From the NCBI RefSeq assembly GCF_017357105.1, contig NZ_CP071596.1, forward strand, positions 3,534,001-3,598,000: a DNA stretch of 64,000 bases, written 5' to 3'. The first letter of the stretch is position 1, and each line of letters opens with the position of its first letter. The notes beneath the pieces were generated by a model that had not been told where the DNA came from, did not search any database, and saw only the letters and a list, made by a program, of their open reading frames with translations. Below, in pieces: positions 26,806 to 44,563 of this stretch. A program made the position numbers and the translations under genes. This stretch comes from Natronosalvus caseinilyticus. GTDB taxonomy: Archaea > Halobacteriota > Halobacteria > Halobacteriales > Natrialbaceae.

Positions 26806-27648
26806 TCAGGGCTCCTCGTCAGCTGCCTCTGGAGCGTCCGCCGGGTCGACGACCTCGCCCGTCTCGGGATAGACGCCGACCTGGTCGCAGACGTCGGCCA
26901 TCGGGCACGCCTCGGGATCCTCGAGGCACGCCGGCGTGCGCGCCGTGCAGAACTCCCGGCCGAACTGGATGCTGGCGGTGTGGCCGAAGCCGCACTTCTC
27001 TGCTGGAACGTCCCGCTCGAGTACCTCGCGAACGCCCTCGTGGTCGGCGTCGGCGGGGGCGATGCCGAGCCGGCGGTAGATGCGGTGAACGTGCGTGTCG
27101 ACGGGGAAGACGCCGTTTCGACCGCCGGCGAACAGGAGCACGCAGTCGGCCGTCTTGGGTCCGACGCCCGAGACTGAGAGCAGCGTCTGCCGAACCTCGG
27201 CGGGGTCGCTCTCGCGAACGAACGCGTCGAAGGCGGCCGCCGAGCCCCAGCGCTCGAGGACCCAGTCGGCGGCGGTCTGGATGACCTCGGACTTTTGATT
27301 GTACAGCCCGGCCGGCTGGATGGTCTCCGCGAGTCTCGCGCGTTCGGCGTCGGCGAGCGCGGCTGCGAGGTCGGTTTCCGTCTCTGGACCACCGTATCGC
27401 TCGAGCAGGGCGTCGTGGGCGGGCTGACTCGCCACGTCGCTCGTGTTCTGGCTCAGGATCGTCCGGACGAGACACTCGAAGGCGTCCTGTCCACCGTAGG
27501 TCTTCTGCCAGTAGCGTTCACCCAGGCGATCGACGACGAGTTCGGCCCGCGTGTCCGCGGTCGCGGGGTCGAAGGTAGCCGCCGTGCCGCCGCCGTCGGC
27601 GCCACCGCTGATGTTCACCGCGGGTTCGGGGTCGGCCTCGTCTGGCAT
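26806..27648 (-). CDS. nth: Endonuclease III (base-excision DNA glycosylase/AP lyase)
   Basis: The 280-residue protein has a 30-residue acidic N-terminal extension, then the HhH-GPD fold: FECLVRTILSQNTSDVASQP, the hairpin LLSVSGVGPKTADCVLLFAG with the catalytic Lys, and Asp in GVFPVDTHVHRIYRRLG. A [4Fe-4S] loop follows (CTARTPACLEDPEACPMADVC). Both catalytic residues and all cluster cysteines appear present. It removes oxidised pyrimidines and cleaves AP sites. It lies immediately before the PolB2 cassette but on the opposite strand. Confidence 0.92.
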   Translation of the reverse strand: MPDEADPEPAVNISGGADGGGTAATFDPATADTRAELVVDRLGERYWQKTYGGQDAFECLVRTILSQNTSDVASQPAHDALLERYGGPETETDLAAALADAERARLAETIQPAGLYNQKSEVIQTAADWVLERWGSAAAFDAFVRESDPAEVRQTLLSVSGVGPKTADCVLLFAGGRNGVFPVDTHVHRIYRRLGIAPADADHEGVREVLERDVPAEKCGFGHTASIQFGREFCTARTPACLEDPEACPMADVCDQVGVYPETGEVVDPADAPEAADEEP

Positions 27649-27914
27649 GCTCGAGGGTAGCCGCTACGGTCACAAAACGGCGCCGGAATCACGGCTGGCA
27701 GGCGCCGGCTCGATGAGTGCCTCGAGTACGTCGTCGGAGCACCATTTGCTAGTTCGTCGACGGCTGCCCTCGAGTTTCGGAAACGATTTCGGAAAGAACG
27801 TTTTCCGCGTTATACGCTCCAAGACCCCCGATATGAGTACTTCACCAGTTATCGGAAATTTCGGAAACGGCCCCCCGATAGTTATCCCGGCCGTGCTCGA
27901 CCGATCGGATAGCC
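27649..27914. promoter_or_regulatory. Regulatory region of PolB2 cassette with TTTCGGAAA boxes
   Basis: The 266-bp divergent space holds three perfect copies of TTTCGGAAA (27775-27783, 27787-27795, 27859-27867) and a near-copy TATCGGAAA (27850-27858). The first two are 12 bp apart, start to start; the last two are 9 bp apart. Each is a half-symmetric TTTC-G-GAAA. Possible TATA motifs are GTTATAC at about 27809 and ATAGTTAT at about 27878, the latter about 30 bp before the ATG at 27915. These clustered boxes look like an operator array for the cassette; the regulator is unknown. Confidence 0.55.
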
Positions 27915-28679
27915 ATGACGATAATCACACACGATTCGACGCTCGAGTCCGGACTCACGCTGCTTCGAACGCCGTCACGACGGTCGGCCGCGGTTCACCG
28001 ACTCGTCTGTGAGTATCTGGCCGACGTCCATGCGTCTCCCGGGCGGTCGGACCGGCCGGCCGAGAAACCGGCGACCGCGGGCAGTTCCCGCGGTCGAGCC
28101 TACTGGATCGACGCCGGCAACGTCGCCTCGACACACGCCCTCTACGAGTGTGCACCGGGGTCCGGTAGAGCGCTCGAGCGACTGCGGATCGCCCGGGCGT
28201 TCACCGCCTACCAGCACCACTCGCTGGTCCGGGCGGTCGTGCGACGAGCCGACGCCGACACCCCGCTCGTGATCGCGCCGAACGTCGCCTCGCTCTACCG
28301 GGACGGCGACCTCCGCGAGTGGGAACGGACGGATCTGCTCGCGTCGACGCTCGCCGTCCTGGGTGAACTCGGTCGCGGCCTCGAGTGTCCCGTCGTGATC
28401 ACTGCGGGCCCGAACGTCCCCGGGACGACCGTCGAGCGCCTCGAAGCCGCGGCGGACTCGACCATCGAGTGTACGCGCACCCGCGAGGGGCTGCGGTTCG
28501 AGGGGGAGGGGTTCGAGACGATGGGCTACTGGCACGGTCCCGTCTGGCAGACGACGATCCCCTACTGGGTCAACCTCTTCGGAGCCGTCGATCCAGAGCG
28601 GCCGTGGGAGCCCAGGACGGAGACGGAGACGGGGACCGACCACCCGTCGATCGACCCGCTCGAGGGGGTGCTCGCCTGA
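27915..28679 (+). CDS. RecA/RadA-like protein without Walker A (PolB2-associated)
   Basis: The 254-residue product lines up in outline with the RadA core: AYWIDAGNVASTHALYECAP resembles the strand of RadA with IDTEN, ALERLRIARAFTAYQHHSLV resembles the RARAFN motif, and LVIAPNVASLYRDGDLREWE and CPVVITAGPNVPG follow the later strand order. The expected P-loop near the N-terminus is absent; LLRTPSRRSAAVHRLV stands where GxxGxGKT should be. So it is probably a non-hydrolysing, RecA-fold partner protein, as bacterial ImuA is. It overlaps the next gene by 1 bp. The family assignment is by pattern, so a search is needed to confirm it. Confidence 0.6.
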   Translation: MTIITHDSTLESGLTLLRTPSRRSAAVHRLVCEYLADVHASPGRSDRPAEKPATAGSSRGRAYWIDAGNVASTHALYECAPGSGRALERLRIARAFTAYQHHSLVRAVVRRADADTPLVIAPNVASLYRDGDLREWERTDLLASTLAVLGELGRGLECPVVITAGPNVPGTTVERLEAAADSTIECTRTREGLRFEGEGFETMGYWHGPVWQTTIPYWVNLFGAVDPERPWEPRTETETGTDHPSIDPLEGVLA

Positions 28680-29068
28680 TGGGGCGAACCAACCCCACCT
28701 ATCGCGACGCGCTCCGGCGGCTGGAGGACGACTGGAAACCGATGCGACGCGCGTTGCGCCGGGAGCGCCAGGCCGACTTCGATCGCCTCTTCGAGCGGGC
28801 GCGGAACGTGGCCGACGCGGCGGGGTACGCGAACGCGGCGGACCCCGAGCGGGCGCTGGTGCTGTCGCTGCTGGTGGCCCACGAGACGGCGATCCGACGG
28901 CTCGAAGCGCGGGTGGCGACGCTCGAGTCGGCACTGGATTCGCTCGAGGCCGAGGTTGACAGCGACATCGACATCGGCCCCGACGCCGATACGGACGCCG
29001 GTTCGAGAGCCGACGCCGACCCGGACGCCGAATCGAGAGCCAGCACCGGAGGAGGCGACCAGCCGTGA
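28679..29068 (+). CDS. Small helical protein between RecA-like and PolB2 genes
   Basis: The 129-residue protein starts MGRTNPTYRDALRRLEDDWK. Residues 1-85 are helical and charged (DDWKPMRRALRRERQADFDR), with a coiled-coil segment at about 65-90 (TAIRRLEARVATLESALDSL). The rest is an acidic D/A/S-rich tail. Its stop overlaps the GTG of polB2 by 4 bp, and its start overlaps the RecA-like gene by 1 bp, which indicates a stoichiometric partner in one complex. I do not recognise a family. Confidence 0.75.
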   Translation: MGRTNPTYRDALRRLEDDWKPMRRALRRERQADFDRLFERARNVADAAGYANAADPERALVLSLLVAHETAIRRLEARVATLESALDSLEAEVDSDIDIGPDADTDAGSRADADPDAESRASTGGGDQP

Positions 29069-31371
29069 CCTTCACCCTCGAGTTCGAAGACGGCCTCGTC
29101 AGGGAGTGGACGCTCGAGGGCGAGGAGGGAGACGGCGATTCGGACGACGACCTCCCTGGCGCGACCTTCGAGGAACGCACCGACTACGTCCCCGCGCTGT
29201 TCGTCGACGGCCCGCTCGAAGCGCTCGAGGCCCTCCGAGACGCCCTCGCCTCGGATCCCAAAGTGTGCGAGACGGCGTTCGAGAACCGCTACCCGAGTCT
29301 GCACGCCCACCACGCCGACGACCCCTCGAGAATGCTCCGCGTCGGCCTCGAGCGCGTCGACGAGGTTCGGACGCTGGCCGCGGAAATTCGAGGCGTCTAC
29401 GGTCGCGAGCACCACGCCCCCGGGACCCTCCGCCTGTTCGACGTCGATCTCACGCCCGGCTTTCGGTATTGCCTCGACGAGGAGATCGACCCCGCGCCGA
29501 GTCGACCCCTCCGGACCCTCGAGATTACCGTCGACGACCGGGCGCTCGCGTCGGGCGACCTCTCGAGCCTCGAGATCGACGGCGAGTCGGTGACCGGCGA
29601 TCCGGCGGACGTCCTCTGGTCGCTCGGTCGGCGACTCGAGCGCCGCGACCCCGACGTGCTCGTGGTGAGCCACGGCGACCTCGTGCCGGCCGTCGAGCGG
29701 GCGGCGGCCGCCGCGGGCCTCGAGGGCGTCCACCTCGGGCGACTCCCCGGCTGGACGAAGCTGGCGGGCGAGAGCACGTACGCGAGTTACGGACAGGTCG
29801 GCCACTCCCCGGCGCGCTACCGGGTTCCGGGCCGAGCGATCGTCGACCGATCGAACAGCTTCCTGTGGCACCAGTCCGGGCTCGCCGGCCTCGAGTACCT
29901 GGTCCAGCGGTCTCGAAAACCCCTTCAGGAGGCGTCCTGGGCCAGTATCGGGTCCGTGCTGACGGCGATCCAGATCCGTGAGGCGCGGGCGTGGGGCGTT
30001 CCCGCCCCGCTCAACAAGTGGGATCCCGAGGTGTTCAAGGACGTCTCGACGCTGCACGCGGCCGACCGCGGCGGGTTCACGTTCGCCCCCGAGGTTGGCC
30101 TCCACGAGGACGTCCACGAACTCGACTTCGCCTCGCTGTACCCGCGGATCATCTGCCGACACAACGTGAGTCCGGAGACCGTCGGCTGCCAGGGAGGGTG
30201 CCGGGACATCCGTCCGACCCTCGGAACTGGCCGCGAGGACGGGTCGGTCCCCGAACTCGAGTACGACGTCTGCGCGACTGACGGTTTCCTCCCGGCGGTG
30301 TTGCGTCCCCTGCTCGACCGCCGGGCGGCCTGCAAGCGCCGACTCCGCGACGACCCGGGCGAGGACGAGGCTGCTCGGCTGCGGGCCGAGTCCGGCGCGA
30401 TCAAGTGGGTGCTCGTCTCCTGTTTCGGCTACCAGGGCTACCGCAACGCGAAGTTCGGGCGCATCGAGTGCCACGAGGCGATCAACGCCCACGCCCGCGA
30501 GATTGCCCTCCGGGCCAAGGAACGCCTCGAGGACGCCGGCTGGCGAATCGTCCACGGCATCGTCGACAGCCTCTGGGTGACGCCGCGAGTCGACGAGCCC
30601 GATCCGCTCGAGGGTGTGATCGCCGAGATCAGTCGCGACGCCGGTATCGACATCGAGCACGACGGACGCTACGAGTGGGTGTGTTTCGTGCCGTTGCGGG
30701 AGTCGAGCGGCGGCGAGGGCGAGCGCAGGAGCGAAAGCGGAATCGCGACCACCGCCGTCAGTGCTGGCGCCGGCGCCGGTGCACTCACGAAATACGTCGG
30801 CAAACGGACGACCGGCGAGTTCAAAGTCCGCGGCCTCGAGTGTCGTCAGCGCCACACGCCGGCGTTCGTGGCCGACTGCCAGCGCGAGTTTCTCGAGGTG
30901 CTCGACGAGACCCGCGACCCGGCCGCCGTCTGTGACCACCTCGCCCGTCGGCTGGGTGACCTCCGTCGCGGCGCGGTCGACCGCGACGACCTGGTGATCA
31001 CGAAACGCGTCTCGAGACCGCTCGAGGCGTACAGCCAGGAGACGCACGTCGTGGGTGCGTTGCGCCGGTACGAACGGCACGACGTCCCCCGGCGGCCGGG
31101 ACAGGCCGTCGAGTACGTCGTCGTCGACGACGGTGCGACGCGGACCGAGGAGCGCGTACGTCTTGCGTTCGAGAATGCGGATGCAGGCCGTGAGCATACG
31201 GTATCGGACTCCGACGGGAAACAACGAGACAGATACGACGTCGACTACTACGCGACCCTGCTGCTCCGCGCGGCCGAGAGCGTCACCGCCGCCCTGGGAT
31301 GGGATCGGTCGCGAATCCGGCGCGCCCTCGAAGACGATCGGACGGTTTCGCTGTCGGTATTTACCCGATAA
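29065..31371 (+). CDS. polB2: B-family DNA polymerase, PolB2 type, with altered catalytic motifs
   Basis: The 768-residue protein uses a GTG start behind a GGAGGAGG-type SD. Region II/motif A is ELDFASLYPRIICRHNVS, with its Asp intact. Motif B is KWVLVSCFGYQGYRNAKFG; the conserved Asn-Ser-Tyr-Gly becomes Val-Ser-Cys-Phe-Gly, with the first Lys kept. Motif C reads HGIVDSLWV where YGDTDS is canonical, so only the second Asp remains. The exonuclease region (LFDVDLTPGFRYC, SHGDLVPAV) also lacks the usual DIE and NxxxFD patterns. This matches archaeal PolB2, often called catalytically degenerate. It could still work in translesion synthesis or as a scaffold. Promoter-proximal partners are the RecA-like and small helical proteins. 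Confidence 0.85.
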   Translation: MTFTLEFEDGLVREWTLEGEEGDGDSDDDLPGATFEERTDYVPALFVDGPLEALEALRDALASDPKVCETAFENRYPSLHAHHADDPSRMLRVGLERVDEVRTLAAEIRGVYGREHHAPGTLRLFDVDLTPGFRYCLDEEIDPAPSRPLRTLEITVDDRALASGDLSSLEIDGESVTGDPADVLWSLGRRLERRDPDVLVVSHGDLVPAVERAAAAAGLEGVHLGRLPGWTKLAGESTYASYGQVGHSPARYRVPGRAIVDRSNSFLWHQSGLAGLEYLVQRSRKPLQEASWASIGSVLTAIQIREARAWGVPAPLNKWDPEVFKDVSTLHAADRGGFTFAPEVGLHEDVHELDFASLYPRIICRHNVSPETVGCQGGCRDIRPTLGTGREDGSVPELEYDVCATDGFLPAVLRPLLDRRAACKRRLRDDPGEDEAARLRAESGAIKWVLVSCFGYQGYRNAKFGRIECHEAINAHAREIALRAKERLEDAGWRIVHGIVDSLWVTPRVDEPDPLEGVIAEISRDAGIDIEHDGRYEWVCFVPLRESSGGEGERRSESGIATTAVSAGAGAGALTKYVGKRTTGEFKVRGLECRQRHTPAFVADCQREFLEVLDETRDPAAVCDHLARRLGDLRRGAVDRDDLVITKRVSRPLEAYSQETHVVGALRRYERHDVPRRPGQAVEYVVVDDGATRTEERVRLAFENADAGREHTVSDSDGKQRDRYDVDYYATLLLRAAESVTAALGWDRSRIRRALEDDRTVSLSVFTR

Positions 31372-36696: not shown

Positions 36697-37752
36697 TCAG
36701 TCTTCACCGTCCTCTTCGACCGGCGGCCAGTACCATGCGTCGGCCCTGACGACACCGAGGAGGTGCCGACGCCGCGTCTCGGATTCCTCGAGAACCCGCT
36801 CGAAGTCGTCGTCCGATACCGTGTCGATGCCGGCCTCGCGCAAGCGGTCGAGATCGGGCGGCGGCGGCGCCTCCGTAGTCGGTTCGATGAACGCCGAGTC
36901 GAGCGTCTCGAGGTAGTCGTCCGTGCTCGAGCGGGCGTGGGTGAGGACCGTCTCGTTCGGACGGTTCTCCGCCTCGACGGCGTACCGGAGGAGCGTGAGC
37001 GACTCGTCGAGAATCGGCACCGCCATCGCGGAGGCCCGGTCACCCTGCTCGCTGTGGTAGTAGTGCAAGATCGGGTAGGACTTGTGCTGTTCGGCTAGCT
37101 GGCTCAACTGCGTCGCGAGCGACTCGAGGGGGCGCTCGAGGCCCTCGAAGGAGTCGCCGTCCCACCCCGTCCTGACGAACGCTTCGCTGCTGTTCCCCAG
37201 TCCCGTGACGTCGCTGGCGAACGATCGCTTCGACGAGACGGCGCCCAGCACCGTGATCACGTAGGAGACGCCGAGGGTCACGAGCGCCATCCCCGTCGCC
37301 GTCGTGAACGAACTCGCGATTTCCCAGGTGCTCGAGGTCGGCGTGTAGTCGCCGTTGCCGCTGGTGAACATCGTGTACGCGACGTAGTAGAGCCGCCCCG
37401 CCCAGTCGGCCGGAGCGCTCGTCTGGGTGCTCCGGAGCGCGACGTCGCCGCCGGCGAAGAGGAACGTCCAGCCGAGCCAGAGGAGCCCGATCCACATGGC
37501 GAGCGTGAGGGTGAGGATCAGCGGGCCGGCCGTGCTGAGCGCTCGCGGTCGGCTCCGACCCACGACACGAAGTATCCGCCAGGTGCCCGTCGTCAGATGC
37601 CTGGAGAGCGGCCCGGCGCCGCCGTCGACCCAGAGCGTCGTCCAGATGATGTCGACGATTACGGCGATCAAGAGGACGGCGCCAAGTCCGAGGTACAGCC
37701 ACTGCATACCTCGTTTCACGGGGCCGATATCCGTCAAAGGATCGCGTGACAA
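36697..37752 (-). CDS. Potassium channel family protein with atypical filter
   Basis: The 351-residue protein has N-terminal membrane helices at about 17-38, 75-100 and 155-180. Between the second and third lies a pore loop, YVAYTMFTSGNGDYTP, in place of the canonical TVGYGD. The C-terminal 170 residues are cytoplasmic and helical (LESLATQLSQLAEQHKSYPI), with no clear RCK domain. This is the two-TM-pore type of haloarchaeal K+ channel. The substituted Val-Tyr of the filter may change selectivity or conductance. Confidence 0.8.
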   Translation of the reverse strand: MSRDPLTDIGPVKRGMQWLYLGLGAVLLIAVIVDIIWTTLWVDGGAGPLSRHLTTGTWRILRVVGRSRPRALSTAGPLILTLTLAMWIGLLWLGWTFLFAGGDVALRSTQTSAPADWAGRLYYVAYTMFTSGNGDYTPTSSTWEIASSFTTATGMALVTLGVSYVITVLGAVSSKRSFASDVTGLGNSSEAFVRTGWDGDSFEGLERPLESLATQLSQLAEQHKSYPILHYYHSEQGDRASAMAVPILDESLTLLRYAVEAENRPNETVLTHARSSTDDYLETLDSAFIEPTTEAPPPPDLDRLREAGIDTVSDDDFERVLEESETRRRHLLGVVRADAWYWPPVEEDGED

Positions 37753-37850
37753 TGCCCGCTGTCGGCCCGCTGTCGGATCCGCTAGCCTCGAGCCTGATCG
37801 ACGGTCGACGACCGACGACGTGCTCGAGGTGCCGACTCTCAGCGACCAGC

Positions 37851-37894
37851 CGACGACCAGCCGACGATCAGCCGACGATCAGCCGACGATCAGC
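37851..37894. repeat. Four 11-bp tandem repeats across the DUF420 stop codon
   Basis: Units are CGACGACCAGC (37851-37861) then three copies of CGACGATCAGC (37862-37894); a partial unit precedes at about 37842. On the coding strand of the DUF420 gene this is repeated GCTGATCGTCG. The unit length (11) is not a multiple of 3, so copy-number change would shift the stop codon and the C-terminus. Confidence 0.75.
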
Positions 37895-38481
37895 CAGCTA
37901 AACTCGTATGTGTAGACGTGATCGAGCAGCAGGTACGTGACGACGCCGAGGACGAGGCTCAGGAGCCACGAGCCGGCGGCAAATCGCCCGACTCGAGCGT
38001 GGGCCGTCCTTCGCAGTTCCGTGGGGGTGTGCGTCAGCCCGAGCAATAGCGCGTAGAGCACCAGTGGGACGGCGACGATCGACAGCAGGATGTGGATCGC
38101 GAGCATGAGCAGGTAGGCGGTCCGCACGAGGTCGGGCCCGACGAAGGATTTGGTCCCGCCACCACCCACCCGAATCAGGTAGACCACGAGAAACAGGAGG
38201 ATGAGCGCGAACGCGGTCAACATCGCTAAGCGGTGTTTCTCGACCTCGCCGTTACGAATCCAGTACCAGCCAGCGGCGAGGAAGACGGTCGTCGTCGCGT
38301 TGATGAGCGCGATGACGCTCGAGAAGACGTTGACCTGTGCGTTCGTCAGGTCGGGGTAGATGGGCAGATCGAGCAAGAACGTTCCCAGGACGAGTCCGTA
38401 GCCGACGACCGTCAGGAGGATCGTCGCCCGGAGCGGGTTGTTCCTGATCCGCCGTTTCGCGGTCGCGGTTGCGATGGCCAT
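37879..38481 (-). CDS. DUF420 membrane protein (heme-copper oxidase-linked)
   Basis: The 200-residue protein has five or six hydrophobic helices (about 18-38, 50-70, 82-105, 122-148 and 168-195). The conserved histidines in KHRLAMLTAFAL, LAIHILLSIVAVPLVLYALLL and LLLDHVYTYEF fit DUF420, a CtaM-like family linked to cytochrome oxidase assembly or function. Its last residues, WLIVG, are encoded by the first copy of the 11-bp tandem repeat at 37851-37894, which runs past the stop. Basic N-terminus KRRIRNNPLR. Confidence 0.82.
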   Translation of the reverse strand: MAIATATAKRRIRNNPLRATILLTVVGYGLVLGTFLLDLPIYPDLTNAQVNVFSSVIALINATTTVFLAAGWYWIRNGEVEKHRLAMLTAFALILLFLVVYLIRVGGGGTKSFVGPDLVRTAYLLMLAIHILLSIVAVPLVLYALLLGLTHTPTELRRTAHARVGRFAAGSWLLSLVLGVVTYLLLDHVYTYEFSWLIVG

Positions 38482-38838
38482 TGTCGGAGGTTTGAACGCG
38501 TTTCGTATCTGTCTTGCCCTTTTCCCGCTAGCCGTCTGGTTCTCTCGATTCTCGACGCCCGACGGCCCCGCTCTGGCAGTCGGTTTCGCACTATACTATA
38601 TGTTTTATAGTAATACGTTCATCGTCGGACCTGCCTCTCGAGGTGACTCGAGCCCGGTACCAAAATCTCCGCAGCGTCCACTCGCGTCGGCGTGCGGGTT
38701 CGCGGTCGCAATTGCGCGGAGCGCCACCTTTTTGCTCGCGTACCGCCCAGGGTCGAGCACATGGTCGCACAGACGATGGATCGAGTTCCGCGTGTTTTCT
38801 AGTTACAGCCGTCTAGCCGTCGCACAGGGTGATCGCCG
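38482..38838. other. AT-rich divergent intergenic region with inverted repeat
   Basis: About 360 bp between the DUF420 start and the DUF7388-like gene. An inverted repeat, ACTATA-TGTTT-TATAGT, spans 38595-38611 inside a highly AT-rich patch. It may be an operator around a TATA box. Frames in this region are weak; a 13-codon frame at 38761 is not credible. The T5 run at about 38729 could terminate a transcript. Confidence 0.45.
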
Positions 38839-39621
38839 ATGCTGACGAGCACCGCCGCCGTCGCGCGAGCGGGCCTCGACGGCATCGCCGTCAAACCCGC
38901 CGAGTGTGACGTCCTGGACGCCCGAGACGTCCCCGTCGACACGGTCGCCGTCGACTACGAGGGACGAGACCACCTGCCGAGCGCCGAGACCCTCGAGGCA
39001 CTCGCCCGGACGGCCGACGTCCGGGTCACGGCGCCGGTCCGCGCCGACGGGTTCGACCCCCTGGGGGACGACTCCCTGCTCTCGGCGCTGCCCGAGACCG
39101 TCGGCCGCGTCTTCGTCGCCGGCCACCCGGCCTACCTGACCGACGCCGAACGCGAGCGGGCGGTCGCCCCGCGCCTCGGGGCCGCCCTGAAGACCGCACC
39201 GGACGCCTGGGTCGGCACCGAGAGCGTCGAGCGCGTCGCAATGGCGACCGGCGCGGCCCAGTACGACCTGCTCTCGCGGAGGACCGAGCGCGAGCTCCGG
39301 GCTATCCGCGCAGCGGGCTTTCCGGGCGAGATCGCCGTCTACGCGCCGACGGTCCTCACCGACGATGAGGACGCCGTCCTGGACGCCGTGGGCGCCTACG
39401 TCTCGAGGCGCCGGCCCGTCTCGCGAGCGCTGCCCGAAGGTGCGCCCGTCGATTCGACCGCGAAGGGCCGAGCGCGGGAAGTACTGCTGGCCGCTGCGAA
39501 GGACTTCGCCCTCGTGGGAACCGAGCGCGAGGTCGCCCAGCGGACGGACGCGCTCCGAGAGGCGGGCGCGACCACGGTCGTCGGCTACCCGGCCCAGGGG
39601 CTCGAGTCGTTGCTCGAGTGA
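38839..39621 (+). CDS. Haloarchaeal TIM-barrel-like protein (DUF7388-like)
   Basis: The 260-residue protein begins MLTSTAAVARAGLDGIAVKP with alternating strands and helices: VDTVAVDYEGRDHLPSAETL, DVRVTAPVRADGFDPLGDDS, VGRVFVAGHPAYL, GEIAVYAPTVLTDDEDAVLD, REVLLAAAKDFALVG. This looks like a TIM-barrel (luciferase-like or aldolase-like) domain. I recall a haloarchaeal family (DUF7388) near F420 or radical SAM genes. Reaction unknown. It lies 100 bp upstream of the creatininase-type gene on the same strand. Confidence 0.7.
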   Translation: MLTSTAAVARAGLDGIAVKPAECDVLDARDVPVDTVAVDYEGRDHLPSAETLEALARTADVRVTAPVRADGFDPLGDDSLLSALPETVGRVFVAGHPAYLTDAERERAVAPRLGAALKTAPDAWVGTESVERVAMATGAAQYDLLSRRTERELRAIRAAGFPGEIAVYAPTVLTDDEDAVLDAVGAYVSRRRPVSRALPEGAPVDSTAKGRAREVLLAAAKDFALVGTEREVAQRTDALREAGATTVVGYPAQGLESLLE

Positions 39622-39717
39622 TTCTCGGCCCAGATCCACCCTCGACGGTCCGACACGAGCCGACGTTTCAGCGAGAAACCACCTACACGTAAGTGCCCCG
39701 AACGCCCACGGTGGCAC

Positions 39718-40482
39718 ATGACACTGCTCGCCGAACAGACGACCACGGCGGCCGCCGACACGCTCGAGGCCGCCGAGGTCGCCGTCCTCCCGACCGGGAG
39801 CACCGAACAGCACGGCCCGGCCCTACCGCTGGGCATGGACCACATGGCCGCGCAGGCGTTCGCCCGAACGGCCACCGACCGCGAGGACGCCGTCGTGCTC
39901 CCGACGGTACCGGTCGGCGTCTCCGTCCACCACCGCCAGTTCGACGGGACGCTCTTCGTAAGCGAGGAGACCTTCGAGCGCTACGTCCGGGAAACGCTCT
40001 CGAGCGTCGCCGAACACGGCGTCCAGAAGGCCGTCGTGGTCAACGGCCACGGCGGCAACTCGAGTGCACTGAACCGGGTCGCTCGTACCCTTCGGGACGA
40101 GGAAACGGCCTTCGCGCCGCCGTGGAACTGGTGGGATAGCGTGGGCGACCTCGCCGACGACCTCTTCGACGAGAACGGCGGCCACGCCGACGCGATGGAG
40201 TCGAGCGTCCTCTGGCACGTCCGCGAGGACCTGATTCGACCGGACCGACTCGAGGAGGCCGAATCGGGCGCCGGCGAGGGCTGGGGCGAGGCGGTCCACG
40301 GTGCGAACGTCGGCTTCGACACCATCGACTTCTCGGAGACCGGTGCGGTCGGGAAGCCGACCCAGGCCGACCCCGCGAAGGGCGAACGGCTGTTCGAGGC
40401 CGCCAGCGACGAACTCCACGCGCTGCTCGACTGGCTGGCGGCACGACCGCTCGAGGACTGCTGGCCCACGGGTCACGTATGA
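39718..40482 (+). CDS. Creatininase family protein (MftE/ArfB-like)
   Basis: The 254-residue amidohydrolase has the family metal motifs: VLPTGSTEQHGPALPLGMDH (Glu, His, Asp), VSVHHRQFDGTLFVS and VVVNGHGGNSSALNR, and NGGHADAMESSVLWH. Creatininase family members open cyclic amides (creatinine), process mycofactocin peptide (MftE) or deformylate riboflavin precursors (ArfB). With an FAD oxidoreductase overlapping by 4 bp, a substrate processing pair is likely. Exact substrate unknown. Confidence 0.85.
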   Translation: MTLLAEQTTTAAADTLEAAEVAVLPTGSTEQHGPALPLGMDHMAAQAFARTATDREDAVVLPTVPVGVSVHHRQFDGTLFVSEETFERYVRETLSSVAEHGVQKAVVVNGHGGNSSALNRVARTLRDEETAFAPPWNWWDSVGDLADDLFDENGGHADAMESSVLWHVREDLIRPDRLEEAESGAGEGWGEAVHGANVGFDTIDFSETGAVGKPTQADPAKGERLFEAASDELHALLDWLAARPLEDCWPTGHV

Positions 40483-41714
40483 GTGGAAGCGGACTCGACG
40501 CGAAAAACGAGGGGGCGGAGACGATCTCCGAACACGAACTCGCCGTCGGCGCCGACGCGTTCGTCGACCGCGGCGCCGGCCTCGAGGTCGCCGTCGTCGG
40601 CGCCGGTGCCGTGGGCGCGACGGCCGCCTACGACCTCGCTCGCGAGGGCGCCGACGTCACGCTCTACGAGAAGGGGCAGGTCGCGGGCGGCTCGAGCGGC
40701 CGCGCCGCCGGCGTCTGTTACAACGCGTTTGCCGACGACCTCGACGCCGAAATCGGCGCGGCAGCGATCGAGCGCTTCCGATCGCTCTCGAGCGACGACA
40801 CCTTCCCCTTCGTGGAGTGTCCGTACGTCTGGCTCGCCCGCGAGGGCGACGAGCGGCGAGCGGCACACATCCGGGAGGGGATCGAGGCGATGCAGTCTCG
40901 AGGGGTGGTGGCCCTCGAGGTCGACGCCGACGAACTCGCCGAGCGGTTCCCGCACCTGCGAACCGACGACGTCGCCGTCGCCGGCATCGCCGGGGCCGCG
41001 GGCTACACCGACCCGGCGCGGTACACGGCCTGCCTCGCCGCCGCGGCCAGCGGCGCGGGCGCGACCGTCGAGACGGACGCCCCGGTCGAGGTTCGCGTCG
41101 ATCCGCCGCGCGTGGTTCGCGAGGGGACGGAGCGAGAACGAGAGTTCGACGCCGTCCTCGTCGCCGCCGGCGGACATACGAAGGCCGTCCTCGAAGCGGC
41201 GGGACTCCCCATCGCGATGAAACCCTATCGCGTCCAGGCGATGACGGCGACCGGGGACCTCCCAGAGCCGATGTGTTACGACGCGACGGACGGCTTCTAC
41301 GCCCGACCGCATCCGGACGGCCTGCTCGCGGGCAACGGCACCGAGGAACGCGAGATCGATCCTGACGACTACGAGCGAGGAGCGAACCCCGGATTCGCCG
41401 ACGAACTGTGCGAGCGCGTCGCCCACCGGTTCCCCGAGGCCGAACTGGGTGAGGCGGAGATCACCCGCGCCTGGGCCGGCGTCTGCACCGCGACGCCCGA
41501 CGGGGACCCGCTCGTGGGCGAACGCCACGACGGCCTGTACGTGGCGACGGGGTTCCAGGGTCACGGCTTCATGCGCGCGCCGGCCATCGGCGCCAGAATC
41601 GCGGACGAGATCCTCGGTGGTGAGGGCATTCCGGCGTTCGACCCCACTCGGTTTACGGGAACCGAATCCTTCGACGTCGTCGAGGGAATGGCTATCGAGG
41701 ACGAGCCACGGTAG
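40479..41714 (+). CDS. FAD-dependent oxidoreductase (DAO family)
   Basis: The 411-residue protein has the Rossmann FAD motif VAVVGAGAVGATAAYDLARE at about 35-55, then EKGQVAGGSSGRAAGVCYN. The C-terminal motif AGVCTATPDGDPLVGERHDG and GLYVATGFQGHGFMRAPAIG is the usual DAO/glycine-oxidase end. It probably oxidises an amine or amino acid (sarcosine/glycine-type). Coupled to the creatininase-like gene (4-bp overlap), it could act on creatinine-, N-methyl- or hydantoin-derived products (inference). The first 30 residues form a polar extension. Confidence 0.87.
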   Translation: MSGSGLDAKNEGAETISEHELAVGADAFVDRGAGLEVAVVGAGAVGATAAYDLAREGADVTLYEKGQVAGGSSGRAAGVCYNAFADDLDAEIGAAAIERFRSLSSDDTFPFVECPYVWLAREGDERRAAHIREGIEAMQSRGVVALEVDADELAERFPHLRTDDVAVAGIAGAAGYTDPARYTACLAAAASGAGATVETDAPVEVRVDPPRVVREGTEREREFDAVLVAAGGHTKAVLEAAGLPIAMKPYRVQAMTATGDLPEPMCYDATDGFYARPHPDGLLAGNGTEEREIDPDDYERGANPGFADELCERVAHRFPEAELGEAEITRAWAGVCTATPDGDPLVGERHDGLYVATGFQGHGFMRAPAIGARIADEILGGEGIPAFDPTRFTGTESFDVVEGMAIEDEPR

Positions 41715-41854
41715 CGGGTGTCCGGCCACGCACTCCGTTCGGGATTCGGACTCGAGGGCGGGCGGTTGGCGTCGCTCGAGACTCGATACCGATCGATTGT
41801 GCCGGAAAGAGACATTCGAGACCGAAAGCGAGAAAACGACCGCTGACAGCCCGG

Positions 41855-42358
41855 TTAATCGTCGACGACGACCTGCTCGGCGCCCGGCTTGAGATCCGAC
41901 GGCGCCATGGCGTCGGGATTCCCCTCGAGAGCGTCGTCTTCGGCGGCCGCCGGGGCTTCCTCGGCCCCGTCGCTATCGATAGAGCCCTCCTTCGGAATCG
42001 TGATCTGCAGGGTTCCGACGTCGGTGAGCGTCGCGGTGCCGGCGTCGGGATTGACGAGCGCGTCGTCGGGCAGGGTCGTTTTGCCGTCGAGGGTCATCCC
42101 GCGACCGGGAAAGCGCATCTCGAAGCCGTCGTGATACGCTCGATAGCGCTCGACTCGTACCTTGACGGTGCCGTCGATGTACCGGACCTGCAGGTCTCCG
42201 GGTTCGGCGCCGGCGGCATCGAAGACGACGAGATACGACTCCTCGCTCTCGAGGACGTCGACGGGTAGCGAACGGTGCTCCTGAACGTGGCTGCGTGCGC
42301 GACCGACCTGTCGGTAAAGCGTGTCGCCGACGGTTTCGCGCAGCGATCTGAGACTCAC
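41855..42358 (-). CDS. Hsp20/alpha-crystallin family chaperone
   Basis: The 167-residue protein uses a GTG start behind an AGGTGA Shine-Dalgarno. The alpha-crystallin domain covers about 30-122: LPVDVLESEESYLVVFDAAG, DLQVRYIDGTVKVRVERYRA, FPGRGMTLDGKTTLPDDALV, and TLTDVGTLQITIPKEG. The IxI-like motif ends the domain and is followed by an acidic tail. Small heat-shock proteins bind unfolded proteins and form oligomers. Heat control is not visible in the sequence. Between 42359 and 42517 lie TATA-like elements. Confidence 0.85.
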   Translation of the reverse strand: MSLRSLRETVGDTLYRQVGRARSHVQEHRSLPVDVLESEESYLVVFDAAGAEPGDLQVRYIDGTVKVRVERYRAYHDGFEMRFPGRGMTLDGKTTLPDDALVNPDAGTATLTDVGTLQITIPKEGSIDSDGAEEAPAAAEDDALEGNPDAMAPSDLKPGAEQVVVDD

Positions 42359-42517
42359 TTGTTGTCACCTCGCGGGGAGTGGGACGGGCGGCCTGTACTG
42401 GTGGGAGGGCTCCCCTGTATACCGATACCACGTCCACCTTGTTATTCTTTTTGGATCTTCTAAATAAACGTCAGACGCTGTTCGACGCGTTGACGTGACC
42501 AGCGACTCCGAGAGGAA

Positions 42518-42676
42518 TTATACTTCGATCTCCTCGAGACACTCGGTCCCCCCGCAGACCGGACACGAGAGGTCGCTCACGCCGTGGTCCTCCGGGACGT
42601 CGTAGGTGTAGTGGTTCTCGAACATGTCGAGGAAGCAGTCCTCGTCCGTGCACGCGATTTCCTTCGTCGGTGGCAT
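42518..42676 (-). CDS. 52-residue zinc-finger protein (DUF7559-like)
   Basis: The product begins MPPTKEIACTDEDCFLDMFE and has two Cys pairs, CTDEDC and CPVCGG, consistent with one zinc site, followed by ECLEEIEV. It fits a short haloarchaeal zinc-ribbon family (I recall DUF7559). Start chosen at 42676; a longer frame to 42706 adds unconvincing residues. Function unknown; nucleic acid or protein binding is likely. Confidence 0.7.
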   Translation of the reverse strand: MPPTKEIACTDEDCFLDMFENHYTYDVPEDHGVSDLSCPVCGGTECLEEIEV

Positions 42677-42832
42677 ACGCCAGGGTAGCGCGGGCAGCGG
42701 TATCAAAGCACGGTTCGCGGCACCGGAGGCGGTCGGGAGCCATCGCCGTCGTAGTGGGACACCTACGATGGTCGAGACGAACGCGACTCACGGACAGTCA
42801 CGGTTTTACGCCTCGGGGCGCTACCTCGAGCC

Positions 42833-44563
42833 ATGACCGACCCCGAAACGCTCGCGGTGACCGTCGTCGACGGCTACGTCGACGAACCGGCTCACTTCGG
42901 GGTCCCGCCGTACGTGTCGACGTACCCGCGCTACACGGCCGGGGCGCTCGTCGACGCCGGCGTTCCGCCCGAGCGAATCACCTACCACACGATCGACGGC
43001 CTGCGCGAGGTTCCCGACCGCTGGCGGGACGTCGACGAGGCCGACCTGTTGATCTACCTCGGCGGGATGACCGTCCCCGGCAAGTACGTCGGCGGAACGC
43101 CCGCCGAACCCGGCGAGGTCCGGAAACTGGCCTGGACGGCCGGCGGCACGAGCCTGATGGGTGGCCCCGTCAAGTTCGGCGTCGGCGACGCCAACGAGGG
43201 GGCGACCGAGACCGAGCGCCAGGACCTGGACTTCGACTTCGTCGCGAAGGGGGACGTCGAGGCCGCCGTCTACGACCTCCTCGAGAGCGGTCTCGAGGGC
43301 TTCAACAACCGGATGCGCGACGTCCCCGAAGCCACGCGGTGGGCCCGGAAAGGTGCGTTCATCGTCGAACAGCACCCGAACCATCCCGACTACCTCATCT
43401 GCGAACTCGAGACTTCACGTGGCTGTGCCTACCGGTGTTCGTTCTGCACGGAGCCGCTGTACGGCAACCCCTCGTTCCGGCCGCCCGAATCCGTGATCGA
43501 CGAGGTCGACGCGCTCTCCGACTACGGCGTGAAACACTTCCGCCTCGGCCGCCAGGCCGACATCCTCGCTTACGGCGGCGACGGGGAGGCCCCGAACCCC
43601 GACGCCCTCCGGGAGCTCTACGGCGGGATTCGGGAAGTGGCCCCCGACCTCGAGACGCTCCACCTCGACAACATGAATCCGGTCACCATCGCGAACTGGC
43701 CCGAGGCCTCGCGGGAGGGAATCCGGATCATCGCCGAGCACAACACGCCCGGCGACACGGCCGCGTTCGGCCTCGAGTCCGCGGACCCGGTGGTCCAGGA
43801 GGCGAACAACCTCAACGTCACTGCCGAGGAGTGTCTCGAAGCGGTTCGCGTCGTCAACGAGGAAGGCGGCTGGCGACCCGGCGAGCAACCGGGGAGCGGT
43901 CCCTCGCTGCCGGCCGACCTCGAGGAGGAGCCGCCACGCCTCCCGAAACTCCTCCCCGGCATCAACCTGCTCCACGGCCTGCTCGAGGAACGCGAGGAGA
44001 CCTACGACCACAACCTCGAGTTCCTCAGGCGGGTCTACGACGAGGGGCTAGTGCTCCGGCGAGTGAACATCAGGCAGGTGATGGCCTTCGACGGTACCGA
44101 GATGTCCGACACCGGGGCCTCCATCGCCAGAGAGCACAAGAAGCTGTTCAAGCGGTACAAGCGCGAGGTCCGCGAGACCGTCGACAACCCGATGCTCGAG
44201 CGCGTCGCACCGGCCGGTACCGTGCTATCGGACGTCCACCTCGAGTACCACCAGGACGGCCACACGTTCGGCCGCCAGCTGGGGACCTATCCCCTGCTGG
44301 TCGGGATTCCCGGCGAACGCCCGCTCGGGTCGACGATCGACGTGGCCGTCGTCGATCACGGCTACCGATCCGTCACGGGCGTCCCGTACCCGCTCGACCT
44401 CAACGCGGCGTCGATGGACGAATTGACGGCGATCCCCGGCGTCGGCGACCGCACCGCGGGTGACATCATCGTCGACCGACCCCACGAATCGATGCCCGAC
44501 CTCGAGTCGACGGTCGACGTCTCGGTGTTCGCGACGCTCTCTCAGCCCTCCGCGCTGGACTGA
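42833..44563 (+). CDS. Radical SAM protein with C-terminal helix-hairpin-helix
   Basis: The 576-residue protein has an N-terminal B12-binding-like Rossmann region (about 1-180; YTAGALVDAGVPPERITYHT), the radical SAM cluster motif SRGCAYRCSFCTEP (CxxxCxxC, about residues 201-208), and the barrel (FRLGRQADILAYGGDGEAPN, ETLHLDNMNPVTIANWPEA). The region about 440-510 has TRAM-like strands. The C-terminus (about 525-555) is a helix-hairpin-helix: LNAASMDELTAIPGVGDRTAG. This layout matches a haloarchaeal/archaeal group that is probably nucleic-acid-modifying (inference). Substrate unknown. A TRAM protein gene follows. Confidence 0.85.
   Translation: MTDPETLAVTVVDGYVDEPAHFGVPPYVSTYPRYTAGALVDAGVPPERITYHTIDGLREVPDRWRDVDEADLLIYLGGMTVPGKYVGGTPAEPGEVRKLAWTAGGTSLMGGPVKFGVGDANEGATETERQDLDFDFVAKGDVEAAVYDLLESGLEGFNNRMRDVPEATRWARKGAFIVEQHPNHPDYLICELETSRGCAYRCSFCTEPLYGNPSFRPPESVIDEVDALSDYGVKHFRLGRQADILAYGGDGEAPNPDALRELYGGIREVAPDLETLHLDNMNPVTIANWPEASREGIRIIAEHNTPGDTAAFGLESADPVVQEANNLNVTAEECLEAVRVVNEEGGWRPGEQPGSGPSLPADLEEEPPRLPKLLPGINLLHGLLEEREETYDHNLEFLRRVYDEGLVLRRVNIRQVMAFDGTEMSDTGASIAREHKKLFKRYKREVRETVDNPMLERVAPAGTVLSDVHLEYHQDGHTFGRQLGTYPLLVGIPGERPLGSTIDVAVVDHGYRSVTGVPYPLDLNAASMDELTAIPGVGDRTAGDIIVDRPHESMPDLESTVDVSVFATLSQPSALD

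Follow-up and report, generated by a model that had tools for sequence, protein, structure and literature searches.

A 64,000-nucleotide window of the Natronosalvus caseinilyticus genome (positions 3,534,001–3,598,000 of contig 1 in a genome of 4.2 Mb) carries three genes that run head to tail on the plus strand, and we describe these here together with the promoter in front of them and an Orc1/Cdc6-like gene (Orc gene, for short) that accompanies the set in many relatives. The first gene (27,915–28,679 of the window) encodes a protein of 254 amino acids (aa), iRadA, which has a RadA/Rad51 fold without a Walker A motif and resembles the inactive RadA of arCOG07763. The second (28,679–29,068) encodes PPB2, or Partner of PolB2, an arCOG07300-like small helical protein of 129 aa with an N-terminal MGRT arm. 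The third (29,065–31,371) begins with a GTG start codon and encodes PolB2, a B-family DNA polymerase of 768 aa that has lost its exonuclease site. An earlier reading of this DNA from its letters (hereafter the sequence-only reading) had reported that the genes overlap, and the coordinates of the open reading frames bear this out: iRadA and PPB2 share 1 base pair (bp; tgATG), and PPB2 and PolB2 share 4 bp (GTGA). From these overlaps and from the gene order in relatives, we predict that the three genes form a single operon.

To gauge conservation, we used a sample of 80 named haloarchaeal loci retrieved through PolB2, as well as a class-wide survey of 193 genomes; kinship among the sequences inflates the counts from both. 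The order iRadA–PPB2–PolB2 is found on one strand in 69 of the 80 loci, and comparison of the survey lists by hand places PolB2 in 122 genomes, iRadA in 116 and both in 113. The trio is therefore conserved as a block, which the sequence-only reading had named as a check on its proposal, and is not a chance association. At several loci (L107, L113, L114, L123, L140, L141 and L145), 1–4 kb of other DNA separates PPB2 from PolB2.

The three proteins and the PolB2 mutasome

On its own, iRadA gives only a weak match to RadB (TIGR02237, E=0.01); among 49 members of its family, RadB is matched by 26 and RAD51 by 12. A profile built from these 49 relatives recovers RadA/RAD51 structures from the PDB, with RadA as the best match (E=1.1e-11), and the AlphaFold (AF2) model, with a pLDDT of 86, matches DMC1, RAD51 and RadA in Foldseek at E~1e-10. 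The Walker A motif is absent from the protein itself and from every one of 70 iRadA relatives (0/70), and the N-terminal oligomerisation domain is likewise missing. Taken together, the profile and model matches and the uniform lack of a Walker A motif lead us to conclude that the RecA fold is real and that the P-loop is gone, in agreement with the sequence-only reading, which had described a RecA/RadA-like protein without a P-loop. An active RadA or RadB recombinase, or a RadB paralogue, was rejected as an identity for this gene because the P-loop is absent.

The N terminus of PPB2 reads MGRTNPTYR, and all 26 aligned relatives have M1, G2, R3, T4 and R9 in common; GRT stands at the start of 70 of 76 relatives. 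The codons of the MGRT arm occupy positions 28,679–28,690 on the plus strand, and it is by this motif that PPB2 was defined when the complex was modelled (PMC11791011). Judged from its sequence only, the protein appears to be helical or coiled coil, which upholds its earlier description as small and helical.

PolB2 matches the NCBI model for type B DNA polymerases (NF004418) with 811 bits, above the cut-off, and also matches PF00136. A profile of 41 haloarchaeal relatives finds structures of archaeal Pol B with E=1.7e-76, and the AlphaFold model (AF2, pLDDT 85) matches the 9N, Pfu and KOD polymerases in Foldseek at E~1e-36. In a profile alignment to Pol B of P. abyssi, motif A (DFASLYP, 30,124–30,144, plus strand) keeps the catalytic aspartate, D354, and motif C reads HGIVDS (30,553–30,570, plus strand) where the P. 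abyssi enzyme has YIDTDG. The DxD signature of motif C has thus become IVD, with I499 in place of the first aspartate and D501 kept, a substitution common to the family (HG[IV]VDS in 79 of 80 relatives). The exonuclease site is lost, with ExoI residues D141 and E143 of P. abyssi Pol B falling on T151 and D153 when this alignment is read by hand. Also on the plus strand, D334-R335 (30,064–30,069) corresponds to the D(K/R) motif, a point of contact with PPB2 in the published model, and the DRGG of which it is part occurs in 80 of 80 relatives. Directly before this loop, the alignment places F324-K-D-V (30,034–30,045, plus strand) as a candidate Rad51-oligomerisation-like (FxxA-like) segment in a region described in PMC11791011. 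The C-terminal LSVF (31,351–31,362, plus strand) may be a degenerate clamp (PCNA)-binding motif, and a C-terminal [LI]x[AST][FYW] is present in 59 of 80 relatives.

Makarova 2014 (PMC4104785) described an operon, haloarchaea included, in which PolB2 is joined by arCOG07300 and an inactivated RadA (arCOG07763 and others) and near which arORC2 genes lie. Timinskas 2025 (PMC11791011) renamed the proteins PPB2 and iRadA, modelled with AlphaFold a heteropentamer of the composition PolB2:iRadA:PPB2(3) and called the complex a mutasome. Every hallmark of the mutasome that we tested by sequence is present in the trio, namely the three families, their order, their coupling, the lost P-loop, the lost exonuclease and the contact motifs. 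Because all of the testable sequence features are shared, the trio belongs to the PolB2 mutasome kind already described. The sequence-only reading, which had proposed an archaeal mutasome as a candidate, thus arrived at a complex that is already in print, with the same families, order and missing P-loop; the promoter element described below is an addition to it.

The published models of homologues suggest how such a complex could work. iRadA, as an ATPase-dead RadA fold, would bind PolB2 through a Rad51-like β–α segment, and a PPB2 trimer would place one MGRT arm between PolB2 and iRadA, near the DNA. If the haloarchaeal PolB2 resembles its Sulfolobus counterpart Dpo2, it would extend mispaired or lesion-blocked primer ends, and the outcome would be damage tolerance at the cost of mutations.

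A tandem CGGAA promoter element

A tandem CGGAA was found in common in the regions upstream of the operon and its relatives. In the window, the proximal element CGGAAATTTCGGAAACGGCCCCCCGATAGTTA (27,853–27,884, plus strand) consists of a tandem CGGAA with a 9-bp period, 14 nucleotides (nt) and a TATA-like GTTA, and lies 30 nt before the iRadA ATG. A distal tandem TTCGGAAAC (27,776–27,795, plus strand) has a 12-bp period, with CGGAA starting at 27,778 and 27,790, and occurs in 8 of 16 CGGAA-type promoters, that of the window included. In this promoter region, CGGAA is present five times in 315 bp versus 0.6 expected, and not one of 5000 first-order Markov sequences contained the full element. 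At all 55 sites compared (34 before iRadA and 21 before Orc genes), the TATA-like box follows after a spacer of exactly 14 nt, where 13–15 nt were allowed. Since the generic pair CGGAAN{3,9}CGGAA is common, with 154 places in the source genome, we relied solely on the form in which the spacer is fixed and the TATA-like box is present.

We searched the 193 genomes with the pattern CGGAA-N(2-4)-CGGAA-N14-[CG]TTA and took the reversed pattern as a control. The search gave 67 matches, with 0–4 per genome, versus 5 for the control. Genes of the regulon type lie downstream of 49 of the 67: 27 iRadA (a count that is in part circular, iRadA promoters being the source of the pattern), 12 Orc1/Cdc6-like, 2 PolB2 as first gene, 2 lone PPB2, 1 another Cdc6-like gene and 5 counted as integrase-bearing elements. 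The Orc, PPB2, PolB2 and integrase matches were not used in drawing the pattern. In the 2.17 Mb of the 80 named loci, a strict form of the element, for which T was also allowed before TTA, occurs 34 times, 16 of them before iRadA, 17 before Orc genes and 1 before PolB2. The last of these is in L107, where PolB2 has a copy of the element to itself, 122 bp ahead of the matched start. Among the viral contigs listed, matches to the element are scattered over unrelated contigs. The literature that we searched, of which our coverage was partial, yielded no description of the CGGAA element.

Two lone PPB2-like genes with an MGKT arm (L247 and L248) also have the CGGAA element, at the usual 26-nt gap to the ATG. 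Five integrated elements of Natrialbaceae (L250–L253 and L255) carry it along with a conserved leader (CCGACGGAC/CCAACGGAC), by which they were grouped, and an integrase was confirmed by Pfam in both of those that were tested, L253 and L255. These elements are possibly released upon DNA damage. Divergent from the operon of the window, on the minus strand at 26,806–27,648, lies a candidate endonuclease III-like gene, so named from its sequence.

The Orc1/Cdc6-like gene and proposed control of the operon

Many loci have an Orc gene upstream of the mutasome and in the same orientation. A representative product of 335 aa (P0004, from L208) contains Cdc6_lid and AAA_22 domains and matches Cdc6/Orc1 homologues in the PDB at E=1e-24. 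Intact copies are found in relatives and on contig C2 of the source genome, where the Orc gene adjoins a second complete iRadA–PPB2–PolB2 set (about 37.2–40.6 kb, minus strand). The promoter in this region of C2 (L268; G000:C2, about 37,177–42,834), which holds both the second set and the intact Orc gene, carries CTGAAACG-CGGAAGCGACACGCCGCGGCTTA. The Orc neighbourhood of the mutasome was already known; a promoter element common to the Orc gene and the mutasome is something that we have not found described.

In Sulfolobus, Orc1-2 regulates genes of the damage response and binds the hexamer ANTTTC, termed DDRE, within the promoter of its own gene (PMC9738581). By this parallel, the CGGAA element would be read by the haloarchaeal Orc protein, and the Orc gene that shares the site most likely encodes a damage-responsive regulator like Orc1-2. 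To judge from the promoter, the tandem CGGAA site would switch transcription of the operon. We consider it very probable that the trio is a haloarchaeal PolB2 mutasome switched through a CGGAA site that it shares with an Orc1/Cdc6-like gene. By analogy with Sulfolobus, the sites may together define an SOS-like haloarchaeal regulon, in which an Orc1/Cdc6-type regulator would read the tandem CGGAA operator 14 nt before the TATA-like box and DNA damage would induce the mutasome, the gene of the regulator itself, extra PPB2 genes and integrase genes; to this broader proposal we give an even chance.

Several observations weigh against these proposals. The chromosomal Orc gene of the source genome (G000:C1:2585-3355, minus strand; L245/L267) appears truncated, with about 265 aa versus 335 aa. 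In relatives, the promoters of the regulator and the mutasome share the element; in the source genome, it stands at the mutasome and is missing from the chromosomal Orc promoter, unlike in relatives from most other genera. Among the 67 matches to the element, 18 have no fitting gene downstream, and the 27 iRadA matches are not independent, while the other 22 before regulon-type genes are. A review (PMC7776575) reports that polB2 can be deleted in H. volcanii, and the gene is therefore not essential there. In addition, the first aspartate of motif C is lost, and a purely structural role for PolB2 would be compatible with the sequence.

It is possible, though we think it rather unlikely, that the CGGAA element serves another form of control, such as one by replication state, and is read by a factor other than the Orc protein instead of acting as a damage switch. 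Grounds for such a view come from a second class of promoters. At 11 loci of other families, a tandem ACTTTC replaces CGGAA in front of the mutasome, and because a different element is used there, more than one regulator can serve the operon. An Orc gene was present in the fetched DNA at 0 of 11 ACTTTC loci versus 27 of 44 CGGAA loci (Fisher p=3e-4, ignoring relatedness). With two promoter classes, it appears likely that at least two regulators serve haloarchaeal mutasomes. Tandem ACTTTC also precedes radA and other DNA-maintenance genes. The radA promoter of the source genome (L148) bears a close variant of the repeat, and ACTTTCACTTYCRCTCCG, which occurs in 93 of 193 genomes and not at all in the reversed control, lies upstream of a gene for a GHKL-ATPase protein resembling topoisomerase VI B. 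Another gene behind ACTTTCACTTYCRCTCCG, which we take to be RPA-like, has no Pfam match. Against a control unrelated to damage, the CGGAA element is rare, and most of its matches have a mutasome, Orc, lone PPB2 or integrase gene downstream, a set that fits a damage response.

A tandem ACTTTCACTTTCACTCCG (L269-L298) is present in half of the haloarchaea at about one copy per genome, with a close variant before radA of the source genome, and looks like the mark of a distinct regulon that comprises genes for DNA maintenance and small zinc proteins. The CGGAA group led us to reject ANTTTC of Sulfolobus as an element common to all of these promoters; the hexamer is contained in the ACTTTC repeats of the other families.

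In an older reading (Rogozin 2008, Makarova 2014), PolB2 is catalytically dead and the role of the trio, at stalled forks or in replication initiation, is that of a scaffold or regulator, which we regard as improbable. Earlier authors called the protein inactive because the first aspartate of motif C is lost, and both the IVD of motif C and the loss of ExoI agree with this view, as do the neighbouring Orc genes, which suggest a link to replication (PMC4104785). The polymerase core is, however, among the best-conserved parts of the protein, with DFxSLYP, K447 and the DRGG loop in the top ranks and with D354, K447 and D501 invariant in 41 sequences, and this conservation argues against decay. 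Moreover, PMC11791011 cites work in which Sulfolobus Dpo2 (PolB2), with the equivalent substitution, is reported to be active, induced by damage and required for targeted mutagenesis. The sequence-only reading had called PolB2 a degenerate B-family polymerase; the family stands, as does the alteration of motif C and ExoI, but judging by the alignments the word degenerate needs a qualifier, the polymerase core being strongly conserved.

That the trio is a bacterial-type ImuA–ImuB–DnaE2 cassette, or a true relative of one, is next to impossible despite the same logic, by which one operon supplies a polymerase and a partner along with a RecA-like protein poor in ATPase, and membership was rejected on the polymerase family and the second gene: the polymerase is B-family and not C-family, iRadA is closest to RadA/RAD51/RadB, and the 129-aa second protein has no Y-family match in Pfam or NCBIfam.

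Relation to known systems

The parallel with ImuA–ImuB–DnaE2 that the sequence-only reading had drawn survives as an analogy of operon logic and not as kinship, since the trio has neither a Y-family ImuB nor a C-family DnaE2. In both systems, one operon encodes the polymerase together with a partner and with a RecA-like protein that lacks normal ATPase, and a role in induced mutagenesis is proposed. They differ in polymerase family and in an unrelated second subunit, and the trio has an archaeal RadA in place of RecA/ImuA. According to Timinskas 2025 (PMC11791011), E. coli Pol V (UmuD'2C-RecA) is built along similar lines, from a polymerase, a small partner that forms oligomers and a protein of the RecA family. 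Pol V differs in having a Y-family polymerase and a RecA that is an active recombinase. To our knowledge, UmuD is not known as a relative of PPB2.

On the side of regulation, the haloarchaeal arrangement resembles the Sulfolobus Orc1-2 regulon in that a short element near the TATA box is common to an Orc1/Cdc6-type gene and to genes of the damage response. The element itself differs, being ANTTTC in the DDRE of Sulfolobus and a tandem CGGAA with fixed 14-nt spacing in haloarchaea. In an SNJ2-like provirus module, as Chen is said to have described in 2023, a virus-borne Orc1/Cdc6 homologue acts as a damage-activated switch in a haloarchaeon and controls an integrase. Euryarchaea, as far as we know, lack LexA. 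If the CGGAA element is indeed a damage operator, it would provide a sequence handle on the control of euryarchaeal mutagenesis. In that case it would also connect an origin-recognition-type protein with the release of integrated elements and, across two distant lineages of archaea, with the signalling of damage.

Haloarchaea, as the trio shows, share their error-prone B-family complex with Sulfolobus, and as some of them are genetically tractable, its mechanism becomes testable at moderate temperature. With the PolB2 mutasome, as represented by the Sulfolobus Dpo2 operon, the trio shares the three families, the gene order (one among the known variants), the MGRT arm, the D(K/R) motif, the substituted DxD, the missing P-loop and the missing ExoI. 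It departs from that system in details of lineage only, namely in its haloarchaeal sequences, the overlaps of 1 and 4 bp, a promoter element of the Natrialbaceae type and a second copy on another contig.

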